DNA of 41,980 nucleotides from assembly GCA_000415185.1 (NCBI GenBank), contig KE351659.1, positions 1-41,980 on the forward strand. Reading direction: 5' to 3'. A model generated the notes under the pieces. That model was given only the letters and a program-made list of their open reading frames with translations, was not told the origin of the DNA and did no database searches. This DNA is from Enterococcus faecalis 13-SD-W-01 (GTDB lineage Bacteria; Bacillota; Bacilli; Lactobacillales; Enterococcaceae). Below, piece by piece: positions 7,689-35,004 of the stretch; the stretch's first letter is position 1; each line of letters begins with the position of its first letter. Position numbers and translations under genes: made by a program.

Positions 7689-7703
7689 AAGGGAAGAGTG
7701 AGG

Positions 7704-10139
7704 ATGGAACAGCCTAAAAAAAATGTGACTCTCAAATACAACGGTGAGATCCATCTCGCTATTGGTAGTTCCAAAACTGAGAAAAAATGGAAAAATCGGC
7801 AAATGTCCTGGGCGGAGTTCCTCGACAGATTAAGTACACCGACGATCACCCAGGAAACTGTAGAAGACTACAAAAAGATGCCGAGGTCAAGACAAGATAA
7901 CGTGAAAGACGTCGGTGGTTTTGTCGGCGGCTGGCTGAAAGAAGGCAAACGAAAAAGAGGCCATGCCCAGCAGAGAAGCCTTGTCACGTTGGATGCTGAC
8001 AGCACGACGCTAGATTTTTGGGAAGATGTGCAGCTATTGTTTGACCATGCGGCTGCTATCTACACCACACACAGTCACCTGGTGAAAGGTCCTCGTTACC
8101 GTTTAATTATCCCCCTTAGTCGTCCTGTGACGGCAGAGGAGTACGAACCTCTAGCAAGAAAATTGGCTGAGATATTCGGTATGGATAATTTTGACGACAC
8201 CACCTACCAAGCTGAAAGGTTGATGTATTTTCCCAGTCATTCTATCGATGGGGAGTATTTCACTGCCTTTCAAGATTTGCCATGGGTTGATCCAGATGAG
8301 GTGTTAACTTCGTATGAGGATTGGCGAGATTCCAGCTTTTGGCCAGAATCCAGTCGGGGTCATTCGATTCGAGAAAGCCAAGCAAAAAAGGCTGGGGATC
8401 CATTAGACAAAAAAGGAATCGTCGGGGCGTTCTGTCGTACGTATGACATCATTTCAGCCATCGAAACCTTTTTGTCCGATGTTTATGGACTGACAGGGCA
8501 CGGCGATCGCTGGACGTATTTAGAAGGTTCAACAAGTGGCGGCCTAGTGATTTACGATGACAAGTTTGCTTACTCACCCCATGGTACCGATCCGGTAGGG
8601 GATCAATTGGTCAACGCATTTGATTTGGTCCGTATCCACAAGTTTGGTGACCTAGACGATGAAGTCAAACCGACGACAAGAATCGACAGATACCCTTCGT
8701 TTAAGGCCATGCGCGATTTTGCGATGGATGACCCAGAAGTAAAAACCTTGATCCAAAGTGAGAAATTATCGCAAGCGTTGGAAGACTTCGACGGCGACTT
8801 GGAAGAGTTGGACGAAGAAGACAAGGACTGGTTTAAGAAACTCAACCTTGAAATTGATGAATACGGGCAAATCGCCTCTTCGGCCAAAAACTTAGAAATT
8901 ATTATGCTAAACGATCCGAACTTGAAAAAGAAGATTTTCATGAACACTTTTTCGAATCGTATCGAAATAAAGGGAAACCTCCCCTGGCGTAAGCTTAGTC
9001 GGGACAATATGTGGAAAGACAGCGACGACGCAGGCCTTCGAGTGTATATCGAAAAAATTTATGGTATTGCCAATCGTGGGAAAATCGACGATGCCCTGAT
9101 ACAGGAAATCGAAAGAAACTCTTATGATCCGGTAAAAACGTATTTGGAAAGTTTGGATTGGGACGGCGTCCATAGGATCGAAACGTTACTGATCGACTAC
9201 TTGGGGGCAGAAGACACACCATTCAATCGAATCGTCACGAAAAAGTTTCTGACGGCTGCAGTTGCCCGGATTTTTGTTCCTGGTATTAAGTTCGATCACA
9301 TGTTAGTCACAAGCGGTCCGCAGGGAATAGGGAAGACCTTGCTTCCTTCTGTTCTTGCTGGGGATTGGTTCTCAAACAGCTTGGAAGGCGTGACGGGAAA
9401 AGATTCCTATGAAGCGCTGCAAGGCGTTTGGATTATGGAAATGGGCGAATTGTCTGCGACGAAAAAAGCAGACATTGAAGCCACCAAACATTTTATCAGT
9501 AAACAAGAAGACATTTTCCGTGTTGCCTATGGCCGTCATAAGTCTTATTTTAAACGGCGCTGTGTTTTTTGGGGAACCACGAACGACAATGAATTTCTAA
9601 GAGACAAAACCGGGAACCGCCGTTTTTGGCCCGTCGATGTCGGTGTGAATCCTATTAAAAACAAGGTGTGGGAAATGCCGCAAGAGATCCGTGACCAGAT
9701 ATGGGCGGAAGCCGTTTCTTTGTGGGAATCAGGTGAAACGATTTATTTAACGGGGGAACAGGAACAACTAGCATTAGAAGCCCAAGAGATGCACACAGAG
9801 TCATCTAGCATGGAAGGGGAAATCCTTGAATACCTGGATATCCCAATAACAGAAGACTGGTACAAACGGAGTAAGCAAGAACGTCGTGAATATATCCAGG
9901 GGTGGGGTACCGAGCTTCAGGAATCCGGCAAGGAAGTTAGAAACAAAATATGTATTGCGGAGATTTGGAACGAATTGTATAGCGGTGATTCGAAAAATAT
10001 TCACCCGGCAAAAGCAGCAGAAATTCGTCAAATTTTGAACCATCTACCTGGATGGGAGAAAAATAAAAAGAATAAGGGTCGGCTAAGATTTGGAGCCGGA
10101 TATGGTATCCAGTCAGCCTTCATGCGTGTTACACCCTAA
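7704..10139 (+). CDS. VapE/D5-type primase-helicase
   Basis: The start is ATG 7704 (MEQPKK); a GTG six bases upstream is possible. The 811-residue protein has an N-terminal primase-like part with VTLDADSTT (D97, D99) and the downstream THSHLVKGPRYRLIIPLSRP. The C-terminal part is a VirE-type (PF05272) ATPase with Walker A SGPQGIGKT (537-545), WIMEMGEL as Walker B (E579), and the family signatures FRVAYGRHK and RRFWPVDV. It is expected to prime and unwind at the phage origin. The candidate origin lies immediately 3' of the gene. Confidence 0.92.
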   Translation: MEQPKKNVTLKYNGEIHLAIGSSKTEKKWKNRQMSWAEFLDRLSTPTITQETVEDYKKMPRSRQDNVKDVGGFVGGWLKEGKRKRGHAQQRSLVTLDADSTTLDFWEDVQLLFDHAAAIYTTHSHLVKGPRYRLIIPLSRPVTAEEYEPLARKLAEIFGMDNFDDTTYQAERLMYFPSHSIDGEYFTAFQDLPWVDPDEVLTSYEDWRDSSFWPESSRGHSIRESQAKKAGDPLDKKGIVGAFCRTYDIISAIETFLSDVYGLTGHGDRWTYLEGSTSGGLVIYDDKFAYSPHGTDPVGDQLVNAFDLVRIHKFGDLDDEVKPTTRIDRYPSFKAMRDFAMDDPEVKTLIQSEKLSQALEDFDGDLEELDEEDKDWFKKLNLEIDEYGQIASSAKNLEIIMLNDPNLKKKIFMNTFSNRIEIKGNLPWRKLSRDNMWKDSDDAGLRVYIEKIYGIANRGKIDDALIQEIERNSYDPVKTYLESLDWDGVHRIETLLIDYLGAEDTPFNRIVTKKFLTAAVARIFVPGIKFDHMLVTSGPQGIGKTLLPSVLAGDWFSNSLEGVTGKDSYEALQGVWIMEMGELSATKKADIEATKHFISKQEDIFRVAYGRHKSYFKRRCVFWGTTNDNEFLRDKTGNRRFWPVDVGVNPIKNKVWEMPQEIRDQIWAEAVSLWESGETIYLTGEQEQLALEAQEMHTESSSMEGEILEYLDIPITEDWYKRSKQERREYIQGWGTELQESGKEVRNKICIAEIWNELYSGDSKNIHPAKAAEIRQILNHLPGWEKNKKNKGRLRFGAGYGIQSAFMRVTP

Positions 10140-19375: not shown

Positions 19376-20308
19376 ATGAAAAACATGTCAAAAACAAACA
19401 AAGACAATTTATTAAAAATGAATCTGCAGACATTTGCTGCAGAGGACGGACTAACAACAATGGACGATTTGGGTGAAATCAAATCCATTGATTTTGTGAA
19501 TCGTTTCGAAGCAGGTATTAAAGAGTTGCTAGCATTATTAGGCGTGACTCGACTAGAACCGCTGACAGCAGATATGAAAATCCAAATGTATAAATGGACT
19601 ACAAGCCTAAAGGACGGAGCTGTCGCAGAAGGTGAGGACATCCCTCTTTCTAAAGTTACCCGTGCGAAAGATCGTTCTTTTACAGTAACTTGGGGGAAAT
19701 ATCGTCGTGCGGTTTCTGCTGAGTCTATTGCTCGTCATGGTGCATCTTTGGCAATCGACCAAGCTGATAACAAGCTATTGCGTCAAATCCAAGGCGGGAT
19801 CAAAACAAAATTTGTCGATTTTCTTGGGACAGCCCCAACAGTAGCGGAGGGCGGAAGCTTACAAAAAGCTTTGGCACAATCTTGGGGAAAATTGGCAACT
19901 TTTGAAGAATTTGACGGCGCTCAATTTGTTTCTTTCGTAAATCCTTTGGACGTAGCAGACTATTTAGGCGATACAGCTGTATTAGCTGACGCGTCGAATG
20001 TGTTTGGTATGACCTTGCTTAAAAACTTCTTAGGTGCTTCAAATGTAATCGTATTGAATGCCGTACCACAAGGGACTGTTTATTCAACAGCTGTAGATAA
20101 CATCGTCCTAGCATACTTGGATATGAAGGCTTCTGATTTAGGTGATATTTTTGTAGACTTTACAGACGAAACGGGCTTTATCTCTGCTACACGTGGTAGT
20201 GTATTGCGTAATGCTACTTACGAATCTCTATTCATGAATGCGTTAGTTCTATTTCCTGAAATCCCAGCTGGCGTTGTGCAAGCTCCTGTAGGGACGGTTA
20301 CACCCTAA
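19376..20308 (+). CDS. Major capsid protein, short form
   Basis: A 310-residue HK97-type capsid protein preceded by AGGAGG. The opening LLKMNLQTFAAED and the central LSKVTRAKDRSFTVTWGKYRRAVSAE region, read in parts, are typical of this group. It ends VGTVTP followed by TAA. The last sense codon and stop form CCC-TAA-G. A +1 slip of the Pro tRNA from CCC to CCT allows translation to continue into the frame at 20307 and adds 111 residues. Confidence 0.93.
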   Translation: MKNMSKTNKDNLLKMNLQTFAAEDGLTTMDDLGEIKSIDFVNRFEAGIKELLALLGVTRLEPLTADMKIQMYKWTTSLKDGAVAEGEDIPLSKVTRAKDRSFTVTWGKYRRAVSAESIARHGASLAIDQADNKLLRQIQGGIKTKFVDFLGTAPTVAEGGSLQKALAQSWGKLATFEEFDGAQFVSFVNPLDVADYLGDTAVLADASNVFGMTLLKNFLGASNVIVLNAVPQGTVYSTAVDNIVLAYLDMKASDLGDIFVDFTDETGFISATRGSVLRNATYESLFMNALVLFPEIPAGVVQAPVGTVTP

Positions 20309-20309
20309 G
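20303..20309 (+). other. Putative programmed +1 frameshift site at the end of the capsid gene
   Basis: In frame the ribosome reads ACA CCC TAA. CCC to CCT re-pairing by one base places AAG as the next codon, giving TPKAPGG... into the Ig-like domain. The same CCC-TRA motif recurs twice in the tail gene. Capsid and tail frameshifts of this kind are established for Listeria phage PSA. Confidence 0.8.
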
Positions 20310-20642
20310 GCTCCCGGAGGCACTCAAGGAACTTTGAACGAAGACGGATCAGTTGAAATTTCTTGGGATGCCGTTGACGGGGCACAGGCTTATGTCATCC
20401 GCTATGGTGACGCAAATCAGTCCGATCCACACCAAACCATTTATATGGGATACAGCGAAACAAATAGCTGGACACTTGCGGCAGAAGATGTACCAACTTT
20501 GGAAGAAGGAGACGAAATTTATTTCTACGTCCAAACCTTTAACGATTTAGGTGAAGGTGCTAACGACATCGAAAAAGCTGCATTCTTGAATGAAAATAAA
20601 CTAGGTTCAGCCTGGTCCGAACCAATCATTCTGACTAAATAG
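20307..20642 (+). CDS. C-terminal FN3/Ig-like extension of the capsid protein, made by +1 frameshift
   Basis: The frame encodes 111 residues beginning KAPGGTQGTLNEDGSVEISW. It carries the FN3-like pattern VEISWDAVDGAQAYVIRYGD, TNSWTLAAEDVP, IYFYVQTFND and ends GSAWSEPIILTK. It has no ribosome site. A TTG at 20334 cuts off the linker, so independent translation is unlikely. Fused to the capsid protein it would give a 421-residue form displayed on the particle surface. About half of the domain matches the first extension of the tail protein. Confidence 0.82.
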   Translation, partial: KAPGGTQGTLNEDGSVEISWDAVDGAQAYVIRYGDANQSDPHQTIYMGYSETNSWTLAAEDVPTLEEGDEIYFYVQTFNDLGEGANDIEKAAFLNENKLGSAWSEPIILTK

Positions 20643-21631: not shown

Positions 21632-21988
21632 ATGGAACACGCTCCAGGTACAAAATTTTTAAAAGGAATCTCTGAGGGCTTAGCTCAAACAGGGATTCCT
21701 GTTTACTTTAAGCTCCCTGATGCTAGCGTTATGGAGCCTTTTTACGTGATAGGCACACATCTTGACGATGATAGTCTTAGTGCTAAATTCGGTCCTGCTA
21801 TTGTCGATATCGAGTTACAGATTGATTTGTTCTACCCTATAAACAGCCGCACTGAGGTTGAGGATGCTATTTATTTAACCAAAGCGGTTTTAGGTAGGAG
21901 AAAGAACATTACATCTAATCTGAGTACAGACGATTCGATCGGCAGAGAGGTCTATCACGTTGTTTTTAGGGTATCAGATTATATTTAG
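21632..21988 (+). CDS. Tail terminator / minor capsid 3-like protein
   Basis: A 118-residue protein immediately before the major tail gene. The sequence has the pattern of tail terminators: GIPVYFKLPDAS, PFYVIGTHLDDDS and VYHVVFRVSDYI. It caps the tail tube at the head end. Confidence 0.78.
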   Translation: MEHAPGTKFLKGISEGLAQTGIPVYFKLPDASVMEPFYVIGTHLDDDSLSAKFGPAIVDIELQIDLFYPINSRTEVEDAIYLTKAVLGRRKNITSNLSTDDSIGREVYHVVFRVSDYI

Positions 21989-22000
21989 GAGGGGTTAAAC

Positions 22001-22591
22001 ATGCCAGAAACAATTATTAATAACGGAGTTACAAAATTTCAAGGAAAACCTATCAAGGGGAAACGGGTATGGTATTTTATCCAATCCGTGGAAGCTGCAA
22101 TTGGTTCGCCTGCGTTATTGCCAGCGTTTCAAACGGAAGGTACCACAACAATTGGCGGTGACAGTATTGATGAACAAACCAAAATGGGGCGCATCATCAT
22201 GAAATCTACCGATGAACATGCCATTGATTTAACTCAATATTTTGCACCAGATGATGAATCTATCCAAGTGGTTGAAGACGCTAAAATAAATGGAAATTCC
22301 ATAAAAGTATGGCGAGTCGTGGTAGATGATACTTTGGCTGTAGAAGAGGGTGAAGGAAGTAAAGCCTATCCTGCTAAATTCGGCTATGGAATACCGGATG
22401 AACTTGAGTATGACGAAGGGGATGACCTTGTTGAAATCAGTTATACATTAAACATCGTTGGAAAACTTCAAAACGGTACTTTTCCTCTTTCTGATGAAGA
22501 TGTTCAAATGATTGAAAACTTGTACAACTACCAACGTCCTGGTGAAACAACAGGAGACTACAGCGATATTCAAACAGAAGTAACACCCTGA
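22001..22591 (+). CDS. Major tail protein, short form
   Basis: A 196-residue tail-tube protein preceded by AGGAGGGG. It begins MPETIINNGVTKFQGKPIKG, is beta-rich, and fits the TP901-1/phage_TTP family in length and in position between the tail terminator and the chaperone. The last codons are ACA CCC TGA. As at the capsid gene, CCC can slip +1 to CCT, opening the frame at 22590. A 19-base GC hairpin starts five bases after the stop. Confidence 0.92.
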   Translation: MPETIINNGVTKFQGKPIKGKRVWYFIQSVEAAIGSPALLPAFQTEGTTTIGGDSIDEQTKMGRIIMKSTDEHAIDLTQYFAPDDESIQVVEDAKINGNSIKVWRVVVDDTLAVEEGEGSKAYPAKFGYGIPDELEYDEGDDLVEISYTLNIVGKLQNGTFPLSDEDVQMIENLYNYQRPGETTGDYSDIQTEVTP

Positions 22592-22592
22592 T
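22586..22592 (+). other. Putative programmed +1 frameshift site 1 of the tail gene
   Basis: CCC TGA in frame 0 is followed by a base that lets Pro re-pair on CCT with GAT as the next codon, giving TPDAPRNVTGVLN into the Ig-like extension. The same arrangement as at the capsid gene, with TGA in place of TAA. Confidence 0.82.
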
Positions 22593-22934
22593 GCGCCCCG
22601 GAATGTAACCGGGGTTCTTAATACAGATGGGTCCGCTTCTCTTTCTTGGGACCCAGTGCCAGGGGCAAAATCGTATATTCCACACTATACCGATGCGAAT
22701 CAAACAGATCCGCACGATGCCAACAAGATGGGGTATACGGAAATGAACTCTTGGACGTTATCAGCTGCAGATATGCCGCAACTAGAAGCTGGAGATGAAA
22801 TCCGTTTCTACATCCAAACTTATAACGAAGTTGGCCAAGGAGCTAACGACATTGAGAAAGCTCGCTATCTACACGATGGTGATTTCTTGGGTTCTGCATG
22901 GTCTGAACCTATTGTTTTGACTAAATCGCCCTAA
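22590..22934 (+). CDS. First FN3/Ig-like extension of the major tail protein, made by +1 frameshift
   Basis: The frame adds 114 residues and begins DAPRNVTGVLNTDGSASLSW. It follows the same layout as the capsid extension: SLSWDPVPGAKSY, MNSWTLSAADMPQ, IRFYIQTYNEVGQGANDIEKA, GSAWSEPIVLTK. There is no ribosome site. It gives a 310-residue tail protein. It ends SP followed by TAA, at a second CCC-TAA shifty stop. Confidence 0.82.
   Translation, partial: DAPRNVTGVLNTDGSASLSWDPVPGAKSYIPHYTDANQTDPHDANKMGYTEMNSWTLSAADMPQLEAGDEIRFYIQTYNEVGQGANDIEKARYLHDGDFLGSAWSEPIVLTKSP
22596..22614 (+). other. GC hairpin just 3' of the tail frameshift site
   Basis: CCCCGG (22596-22601) pairs with CCGGGG (22609-22614) around a seven-base AATGTAA loop. 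It starts five bases after the TGA. It lies where a downstream stimulator of frameshifting would, and could also join a pseudoknot. Confidence 0.55.
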
Positions 22935-22935
22935 G
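22929..22935 (+). other. Putative programmed +1 frameshift site 2 of the tail gene
   Basis: In the frame of the first extension the ribosome reads TCG CCC TAA. Re-pairing on CCT sets AAG as the next codon, and the new frame is open to 23202. The heptamer CCCTAAG is identical to that at the capsid site. Confidence 0.72.
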
Positions 22936-23202
22936 CCTCCCCGAATCACCTACGTTGATACTTACATTGTGGGACAGTCTACTTGGGTGACAGGGGAGCA
23001 TTCAGGGAGCGAGCTAGCTAAAAAGGTTGGCTTGTACATCAATGGAGCGAGAATTTACTCCGTGCCAATTGGCCAAGCTGAACCCGGTCATTTTAAGTAT
23101 TACAGAAAAGACTTAAAGAAAACAGATGTTGTGAAAGTCTACATTGCAGATGCAGACGACAAAGAACTAGATAAGGCAGATGTGCCAATATCAGAAGGCT
23201 AG
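22933..23202 (+). CDS. Second Ig-like extension of the tail protein, needing a second +1 frameshift
   Basis: The frame adds 89 residues: KPPRITYVDTYIVGQSTWVT, then SELAKKVGLYINGARIYSVP, FKYYRKDL, and VKVYIADADDKELDKADVPI. The pattern is that of bacterial Ig-like repeats of Gram-positive surface proteins (VxVTG...LxVNG...YYxKD...VxVxAxDxxG). It is unrelated to the first extension. It has no ribosome site of its own, so it is most likely read only as part of a 399-residue, doubly shifted tail protein. Confidence 0.75.
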   Translation, partial: KPPRITYVDTYIVGQSTWVTGEHSGSELAKKVGLYINGARIYSVPIGQAEPGHFKYYRKDLKKTDVVKVYIADADDKELDKADVPISEG

Positions 23203-23236
23203 AAATAGCCTTCTTTTTATTTTAGGAGGAAAAAAT

Positions 23237-23737
23237 ATGCCATTCACAGTTGAGTTAAAAGGAAAACCACTAGAGATCAAATTTAATTACGCATTGTTGT
23301 TCAAAGCAAATAAACGTCTAGGCTCAAAAGATGCAGACGGAAATTCACAAAAGGACGGTGCGGGTGTTCTTTTCGCCCAAGTCTTAGAAAAAGACGACGA
23401 TGCACTAATCAATATTATCAAATTGGTCACAAAAGGTGATCCGTCAGAAAATGACATCTTAGAGGCAATTGGCACTTATGTTTCTGCATATGAAGATGAA
23501 GAAGAGGGCTACAATGCAATTTTCGAAAATCTCAAAGAGGAAATGCTGAATTCAGGTTTTTTCTTGACGAAAATCAAAAAATACATCAGCAATCTGGAAA
23601 AAGCGGCGAAAGCAATCAAGGAACAAAAACCGGACGAAAAAATCCAAGACCCGAAAGCCTCAGCACAAGCAGTTCAAGAACTGGCAGACACGATGAAGAA
23701 AGAAATCTCATCGTTGACTGTGCAAGACAAGGACTAA
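23237..23737 (+). CDS. Tail assembly chaperone (gpG-like)
   Basis: The start is ATG 23237, chosen because TTTAGGAGG precedes it. The 166-residue protein (MPFTVELKGKPLEIKFNYAL) is typical of siphovirus tail assembly chaperones in place, with an acidic C-terminal half. The next gene overlaps in another frame, as gpG/gpGT pairs do. The protein coats the tape measure during tail assembly. Confidence 0.85.
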   Translation: MPFTVELKGKPLEIKFNYALLFKANKRLGSKDADGNSQKDGAGVLFAQVLEKDDDALINIIKLVTKGDPSENDILEAIGTYVSAYEDEEEGYNAIFENLKEEMLNSGFFLTKIKKYISNLEKAAKAIKEQKPDEKIQDPKASAQAVQELADTMKKEISSLTVQDKD

Positions 23738-34923: not shown

Positions 34924-34928
34924 TCTCT

Positions 34929-35002
34929 GTACCCTTAGCTCAGTTGGTCAGAGCAGACGGCTCATAACCGTCCGGTCGTAGGTTCGAGTCCTACAGGGTA
35001 CA
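34929..35002 (+). tRNA. tRNA-Met (CAT), phage-encoded
   Basis: A complete cloverleaf: acceptor GTACCCT/AGGGTAC, D-arm GCTC...GAGC, anticodon loop CTCATAA with a five-pair stem (GACGG/CCGTC), T-arm GTAGG/CCTAC, and discriminator A. There is no encoded CCA. The anticodon CAT fits elongator Met, or Ile if modified to lysidine. It lies inside the prophage, left of attR. Confidence 0.92.
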
Positions 35003-35004
35003 TA

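Follow-up and report, generated by a model that had tools for sequence, protein, structure and literature searches.

The window analysed here is the whole 41,980-nucleotide (nt) stretch of contig KE351659.1 (assembly GCA_000415185.1) from Enterococcus faecalis 13-SD-W-01. It contains a prophage whose major tail (tail-tube) protein gene is followed by two further open frames, each shifted by one base (+1) relative to the frame before it (Table 1). The tail gene ends with GTA ACA CCC TGA. The first +1 frame (DAPRNVTGVLN...LTKSP; coding part 22590-22931) runs from 22590 to a TAA at 22932-22934 and ends with AAA TCG CCC TAA, and the second +1 frame (KPPRITYVD...SEG; coding part 22933-23199) extends from 22933 to a TAG at 23200-23202. 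When CCCT is read as proline, the three frames join into one product of 399 residues; this reading is needed exactly twice, at P196 and P310. A first-pass annotation of this DNA had described the ends ACA CCC TGA and TCG CCC TAA, each with an open +1 frame, and had predicted forms of 196, 310 and 399 residues; both ends are present in the sequence, and the predicted lengths agree with translation across both slips. Counted over all frames and both strands of the window, CCC precedes 40 of 4221 stop triplets (0.95%), and it accounts for 12% of the proline codons in 30 open reading frames of the window. Two serial CCC-stop junctions are expected by chance about once in 10,000, before a recognisable domain is required at each of them.

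Table 1 Features of the tail and capsid genes of the window prophage and of their +1 extensions
Feature	Position	Strand	Remarks
Major tail (tail-tube) protein gene (P0001)	22001..22591	+	196 aa, zero frame; PF06199 (Phage_tail_2) E=9e-10, phrog_238 E=3e-54
Putative slip site 1	22586..22591	+	CCC TGA, leading to the +1 frame from 22590; from sequence
Candidate stimulatory stem-loop	22595..22615	+	CCCCGG-AAUGUAA-CCGGGG, 6-7 bp; begins at the 4th-5th base past the stop
Extension 1 (P0002), FN3-like domain	22590..22934	+	114 codons + TAA, +1 frame; fn3 E=2.8e-4, sub-threshold; phrog_7440 E=1e-40; dN far below dS
Putative slip site 2	22929..22934	+	CCC TAA, leading to the +1 frame from 22933; from sequence
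Extension 2 (P0003), Big_16 immunoglobulin-like domain	22933..23202	+	89 codons + TAG, third frame; PF20622 E=8e-12
Major capsid gene of the same prophage	19376..20308	+	phrog_544 E=6e-68; ends ACA CCC TAA, putative slip site 20303-20308
Capsid +1 extension, FN3-like, single step	20307..20642	+	62% identical to the tail FN3-like domain; ends AAA TAG

The two extensions correspond to distinct domains. Extension 2 matches PF20622 with 45.3 bits, above the curated cut-off of 27, which agrees with the immunoglobulin (Ig)-like domain proposed for it at first pass. Extension 1, called FN3/Ig-like at first pass, is strongly similar (E=1e-40) to the C-terminal region of phrog_7440 'major tail protein'. 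The fn3 model (PF00041) itself scores 21.5 bits against a curated cut-off of 25, and because of this we name the domain FN3-like only. PDB sequence searches with A1 and A4 returned no match at E 0.01. Among 103 genomes from the same family as the window, 35 also have PF20622 domains; in the listed matches these mostly occur in tandem within large open frames resembling surface proteins. The outer domain of the phage may derive from the host.

Relatives of the FN3 module were collected from IMG/VR, GTDB contigs, phage records and whole genomes, of which there were 105 at the family level, 395 at the order level and 398 at the class level. The 68 rows classified comprise 59 IMG/VR loci (including L053, the IMG/VR copy of the window prophage), four rows from genomes, three GTDB contigs, one phage record and the capsid copy of the window, and at 95% identity they reduce to 44 clusters. 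Excluded from this set were repeated places or contigs (L001, L002, L007, L018, L019, L037-L041, L043-L052, L077, L078, L084-L086, L088, L089, L104, L105, L140-L144), loci retrieved for host or surface Big domains and lacking FN3 (L009-L017, L020-L036, L087, L090, L100-L103), and phage relatives of the virion genes whose capsid and tail genes end with no CCC and are not extended (L004, L005). Phage 4995_2 with TCC-TAA (L006), a capsid gene with a third-type domain and no FN3 (L008), weak partial matches in metagenome-assembled genomes (L094-L096), phage EFP1, in frame like L097 (L098), and Listeria phage P40, in frame and 35% identical (L099), were set aside as well. The same applies to L079 from G104, whose tail-FN3 junction and domain are the same as those of L091, a metagenome-assembled genome of Tetragenococcus, from the family of the window genome.

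The junction in front of FN3 is of the +1 type in 37 of the 44 clusters, of the -1 type in five and in frame in two. In each of the 37 clusters at least one member has CCC no more than two codons before the stop of the virion gene, and in 34 of them CCC stands directly before the stop. The possibility had been raised at first pass that relatives carry the domains in a single frame; this is found for the first junction, in L097, L126 and Listeria phage P40, and not for the second. In phiFL4A (gp45) and in Listeria phage P40 (gp11), such a tail-FN3 fusion has been annotated as one gene. At L072 and L051 the tail gene connects to FN3 through C CCA AAA and a shift of -1 in place of +1. Variants that have lost the slip codon and keep the FN3 frame open are L058, L059, L060, L062, L063 and L064 (all CAC) as well as L061 and L006 (both TCC).

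Phage records with DNA similar to the window comprise nine from Enterococcus and 12 from Streptococcus, the best-scoring being from Enterococcus. The nearest phage-record relative of the window capsid and tail genes is phiFL1A, with about 70% DNA identity. The capsid and tail gene ends of phiFL1A and of the streptococcal Javan273 have no CCC and no extension, which suggests that the virion genes of the window acquired their FN3 modules. In phiFL1A the tail gene, itself unextended, is followed by the 302-aa gp51 (L004 3242-4150), which by eye resembles a glycosyltransferase.

The first-pass annotation had proposed a search of related prophages for both slip sites. The two-step layout is found in nine of the 44 FN3 clusters, across four genomes of two genera and further IMG/VR contigs. 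These are the window tail gene (L053); another phage contig of the window genome (G000:C50, L054/L039); G027:C1:667k (L082/L019); G030:C51 (L080), where the layout stands on a capsid gene; G048:C7 (L081), from another genus of the family; L131 together with L129; L130; L109, whose third frame has only 25 aa; and L125, whose third domain differs. The genes in front of the two-step extensions belong to five tail families (phrog_238, 885, 820, 88 and 117) and one capsid family (phrog_10). The third domain is of the PF20622 type in the window, C50, G027, G030, G048, L130 and L131, and the 25 codons of L109 are a remnant of a PF20622-type module. For the third domain of L125, 77 of 50,697 phage records contain a match, 74 of them from Enterococcus; identity is 37-39% among the 20 matches listed, two of which have the annotation minor tail protein or tail fibre. 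In C50 the third extension (L039 5118-5750) continues after Big_16 in the same frame into a HeH/LEM domain (PF12949).

The presence of an outer domain is strongly associated with the slip codon. CCC lies within two codons of the FN3 stop in all nine clusters that have a third domain or its remnant and in none of the 35 that lack one (Fisher p=1.4e-9). The set with a third domain was entered by hand from the extension sequences and not from the codon; long +1 openings after FN3 in L097, L108, L112, L128 and L133 were judged by eye to be the next gene and were not counted. Pattern scans with the third domains mostly returned loci already in the set. In IMG/VR, P0003 returned one locus, the window prophage; the third-domain query A2 returned one, the C50 contig; A11 returned only L130 itself, and the L125 third domain only itself. 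Searches of the 50,697 phage records gave no match for P0003 or the L131 extension and three distant matches (34-35%) for the L081 extension, and A3 was found in G000 only among the 398 genomes of the class. These scans are not exhaustive: L131 escaped the A2 scan despite 75% identity over 171 codons.

The third frame is protein-coding and under purifying selection. Synonymous (dS) and nonsynonymous (dN) divergence was estimated by the method of Nei and Gojobori, and the same DNA read in either other frame, with stop codons left out, served as control. The dN/dS of the third frame is 0.09-0.26 in five pairwise comparisons: window-C50 (Big part; dS 0.86, dN 0.22), C50-L131 (1.68, 0.145), C50-G027 (2.3, 0.28), G027-L131 (1.98, 0.30) and the Big pair L130-L080 (1.72, 0.35). 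In the other two frames of the same DNA, dN is about equal to or above dS.

The module boundary coincides with the slip site. The tail genes of the window and C50 belong to different PHROG families and have 20-43% identity in 30-nt steps up to 22590, whereas the 120 nt from 22590 onward are 100% identical, the shared run starting at ACACCC. The whole FN3 domain is 94% identical at the protein level between the two. Because a near-identical FN3 starts exactly at the slip site behind tail genes of different families, the FN3 domain appears to move together with its slip site. A corresponding pair exists for the outer domain. Compared in 40-nt steps, L083 and L130 share 93-100% identity across tail and FN3, and in L130 the next gene lies 269 nt further on, the added DNA encoding the Big domain. 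FN3 ends with CCC-AGT-TAA in L130, which has the Big domain, and without CCC in L083, which lacks it. L072 presents the reverse case, with a third-module remnant behind CTC-TGA. Moreover, at G027:C1:1797k (L008, 1797581) a capsid gene is joined directly to a third-type module by CCC-AAA-TAA in +1 with no FN3 between, and therefore the modules are interchangeable. The string CCCTRA..GCCCC is common to first and second junctions in several loci. These boundaries would fit a mobile cassette of slip site plus domain as the evolutionary unit, placed behind any abundant virion gene and with a second one stackable behind the first, an idea that we put forward tentatively and hold to be slightly less probable than its contrary.

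Taken together, the recurrence on five tail PHROG families and one capsid family, the association of CCC with the third domain and the selection on the third frame make it likely that the window encodes three nested tail proteins by two serial programmed +1 ribosomal frameshifts. Most ribosomes would stop at the TGA and release the 196-aa protein. A fraction would pause with peptidyl-tRNA-Pro on CCC before the slowly decoded stop, slip one base to CCU and read on through the FN3-like domain, giving the 310-aa form. A fraction of these once-shifted ribosomes would slip again at CCC-TAA, adding the Big_16 Ig domain to give 399 aa. In Bacillus phage SPP1, ribosomes pausing at the CCC of CCCUAA shift to CCU, and the ratio of gp17.1 to gp17.1* is 3:1 (PMC6316719). 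If both sites of the window slipped at the SPP1 rate, the three forms would split about 75:19:6, an illustration and not a prediction. Because all forms share the tube-forming part, they would be expected to co-assemble into a tail on which most subunits are bare, some present one domain as a spike and a few present two. Such spikes would probably form weak, many-copy contacts with the cell wall; this adhesive role is suggested by the domain types and by the published binding of the lactococcal 936 TpeX module to host cells (PMC6669499). Each domain would have its own slip site at its front edge, and could therefore be swapped between virion genes and stacked.

Several observations weigh against serial frameshifting, and they are given here along with the alternatives that they favour. 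The first concerns the candidate stem-loop after slip site 1. A CCCCRG-N7-CYGGGG stem stands at a fixed distance from the first site in many loci, and in six sequences the probability of reaching the register-specific 6-bp stem by synonymous codon choice is 0.003-0.007 each. Of the 52 distinct first-junction strings, 26 were aligned; 87% of the cells in this alignment pair, and one pair is changed on both sides in four of the 26. This covariation, one of six stem pairs, is reached by 219 of 500 shuffles, and RNAalifold keeps three pairs at -0.5 kcal/mol. A stem of this kind is present after 31 of the 52 distinct first junctions and missing after 21, it follows none of 10 second sites, and at the first site of the window the folding is not unusually stable (z -0.55). 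These counts and the weak consensus energy rule out the stem-loop as a required stimulator, and it remains a candidate stimulator at site 1 alone.

Together with the shared junction string, the stem-loop might instead act mainly as a target of recombination at the DNA level, the frame being bridged by whatever slip is available. The identity breakpoint at ACACCC, the occurrence of one string at both junctions and the -1 (five clusters) and in-frame (two clusters) relatives fit this reading. Against serial frameshifting itself, first sites are not uniform: in one 11-row cluster near Enterococcus phage 4995_2, seven rows have CAC (six) or TCC (one) in place of CCC, and the first site of L082 is CCC-TCA-stop. 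A recombination target leaves unexplained why 37 of 44 clusters have a +1 junction at CCC and why the third frame is under selection. We consider it unlikely as the main role of these elements, and it can be compatible with serial frameshifting.

Alternatively, only the first shift works, the third frame being a leftover of domain swapping that has stayed open and the CCC-TAA at 22929 being incidental. Third frames have indeed decayed, with L129 internally disrupted, L109 reduced to 25 aa and L072 left with its remnant; the third module of the window is a shortened version of that in C50; and the second sites lack the stem-loop. A separate point against serial frameshifting is that second sites vary, being CCC-TRA in six of the nine clusters, CCC-AGT-TAR in L081 and L130 and CCC-CTC-TAA in L125. 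The nine clusters are not fully independent either, because the window and C50 share a genome and a near-identical FN3. A leftover would not account for the purifying selection in five pairwise comparisons or for the link between CCC and a third domain or its remnant (nine of nine clusters against none of 35). The L072 remnant, moreover, has CTC instead of CCC, but the reduced L109 still has CCC. On this balance we rate a leftover third frame as distinctly improbable.

It is very improbable that the downstream domains are made unfused, from their own starts or by termination-reinitiation. ATG, GTG and TTG codons were checked from the upstream stop to 30 codons beyond each slip site. The window tail extensions contain only domain-internal GTGs (codon 22 in one; codons 12 and 18 in the other), none with a Shine-Dalgarno match, and starts at these positions would truncate the domains. 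By sequence, this bears out for both extensions the earlier claim that neither downstream frame has a ribosome site of its own. Candidate starts do exist elsewhere. In the capsid extension of the window the 8th codon is a TTG with GGAGG upstream, a possible alternative start, and short (4-base) Shine-Dalgarno matches accompany the C50 FN3 TTG at -34, the C50 third-frame GTG at +18 and the G027 FN3 ATG at -25. In L131 an in-frame ATG is the second codon after the second slip site, and in L130 and G030 ATGs lie 4-5 codons into the third frame, but these have no Shine-Dalgarno match. TGATG or TAATG overlaps are frequent at first sites, and their ATG is in the wrong frame for FN3. The annotation of the in-frame fusions in phiFL4A and Listeria phage P40 as single genes also speaks against separate products. 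Finally, an assembly or sequencing error at one or both frame breaks, raised at first pass and favoured by nothing beyond the generic risk of a 95-contig assembly, is practically negligible and does not explain the pattern, because the two-step layout recurs across genomes and contigs, with both breaks +1 and CCC within two codons of the stop in G027, G030, G048, L130, L131 and L125.

The proposed serial frameshifting at the tail gene has a putative single-step counterpart at the capsid gene of the same prophage (Table 1), and the capsid and tail may both be decorated via +1 shifts, as in Listeria phage PSA. Elsewhere in the window, an 813-aa open reading frame (7698-10139) also ends with ACA CCC TAA (10134-10139); its +1 frame closes after five codons, which makes it a natural case without extension. 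A terminator-like hairpin with a T run at 23193-23214 overlaps the third-frame stop, between the tail gene and the tail chaperone gene, and may reduce expression of the genes downstream of the abundant tail protein. Two terminator-like sites lie in 21900-23300, where 1.3 are expected. A tRNA-Met gene is located at 34928-35003 in the later part of the window, perhaps close to the prophage boundary.

Serial frameshifting as proposed here would place two Ig-like domains in series behind two shifts, on several tail families and one capsid family, with interchangeable outer domains, namely Big_16 or else a module similar to segments of other phage proteins, chiefly from Enterococcus. This could explain why Ig-like domains are frequently encoded behind a frameshift and not in frame: the slip site would set the dose, protect the main product and travel with the domain. 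If slip site and domain do move as one cassette, phages would have a general, stackable way of dosing surface domains, leaving the main product unaltered and presenting each added layer at a lower level. The near-identical pair L130/L083, with and without the outer domain, and the natural losses of the slip codon make the idea directly testable.

Single +1 shifts at CCC-UGA/UAA that extend tail or capsid proteins are established (PMC5009743, PMC6316719). The window resembles SPP1 gp17.1/gp17.1* in its CCC-stop at the end of a tail-tube gene (CCC-UAA in SPP1), the +1 direction and the FN3 extension, which in SPP1 is exposed on the tube (PMC6316719, PMC8718954). SPP1 differs in having one shift and one extension, with a reported ratio of 3:1, and its virions remain infectious when the FN3 form is lacking (PMC8718954). 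Listeria phages PSA, A118 and A500 use +1 shifts in tsh, with (AAA)CCC-UGA at the tail gene, and PSA also in cps; the capsid gene of the window is laid out likewise, but the Listeria phages have one shift per gene (PMC5009743). In lactococcal 936 phages (TpeX), the major tail protein likewise bears an Ig-like adhesin, plus an additional carbohydrate-binding module encoded past a frameshift; the adhesin is in the tail gene's own frame and there is one shift, whereas both domains of the window are out of frame (PMC6669499). According to a 2022 review, the tube proteins of siphophage tails may have room for one Ig-like domain at the C terminus (PMC9022992). Full-text literature searches, whose coverage leaves out most subscription journals, returned no serial frameshifting in a virion gene.

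Two serial shifts giving nested proteins are known from Gag-Pro-Pol of betaretroviruses and deltaretroviruses, such as mouse mammary tumour virus (MMTV) and human T-lymphotropic virus (HTLV). The retroviral shifts are -1, eukaryotic, located at X_XXY_YYZ heptamers and used for enzyme precursors, in contrast to the +1 layout at CCC-stop in the window (PMC5009743). The reverse transcriptase of the Quimbyvirus diversity-generating retroelement (DGR) is likewise a phage gene spread over three frames, for which two programmed frameshifts have been suggested; unlike the tail gene, it encodes one enzyme that needs the full product, with no nested set and no virion protein (PMC8008677). The window shares with the SPP1/PSA type the CCC-stop gene end, a +1 Ig/FN3-type domain beginning at the slip codon and the lack, by sequence, of an independent start for the tail extensions. 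It departs from the single extension per gene described for this type by its second +1 site and third-frame domain, and the new part is this serial, stackable arrangement on virion genes, as a variant of the known +1 extension.

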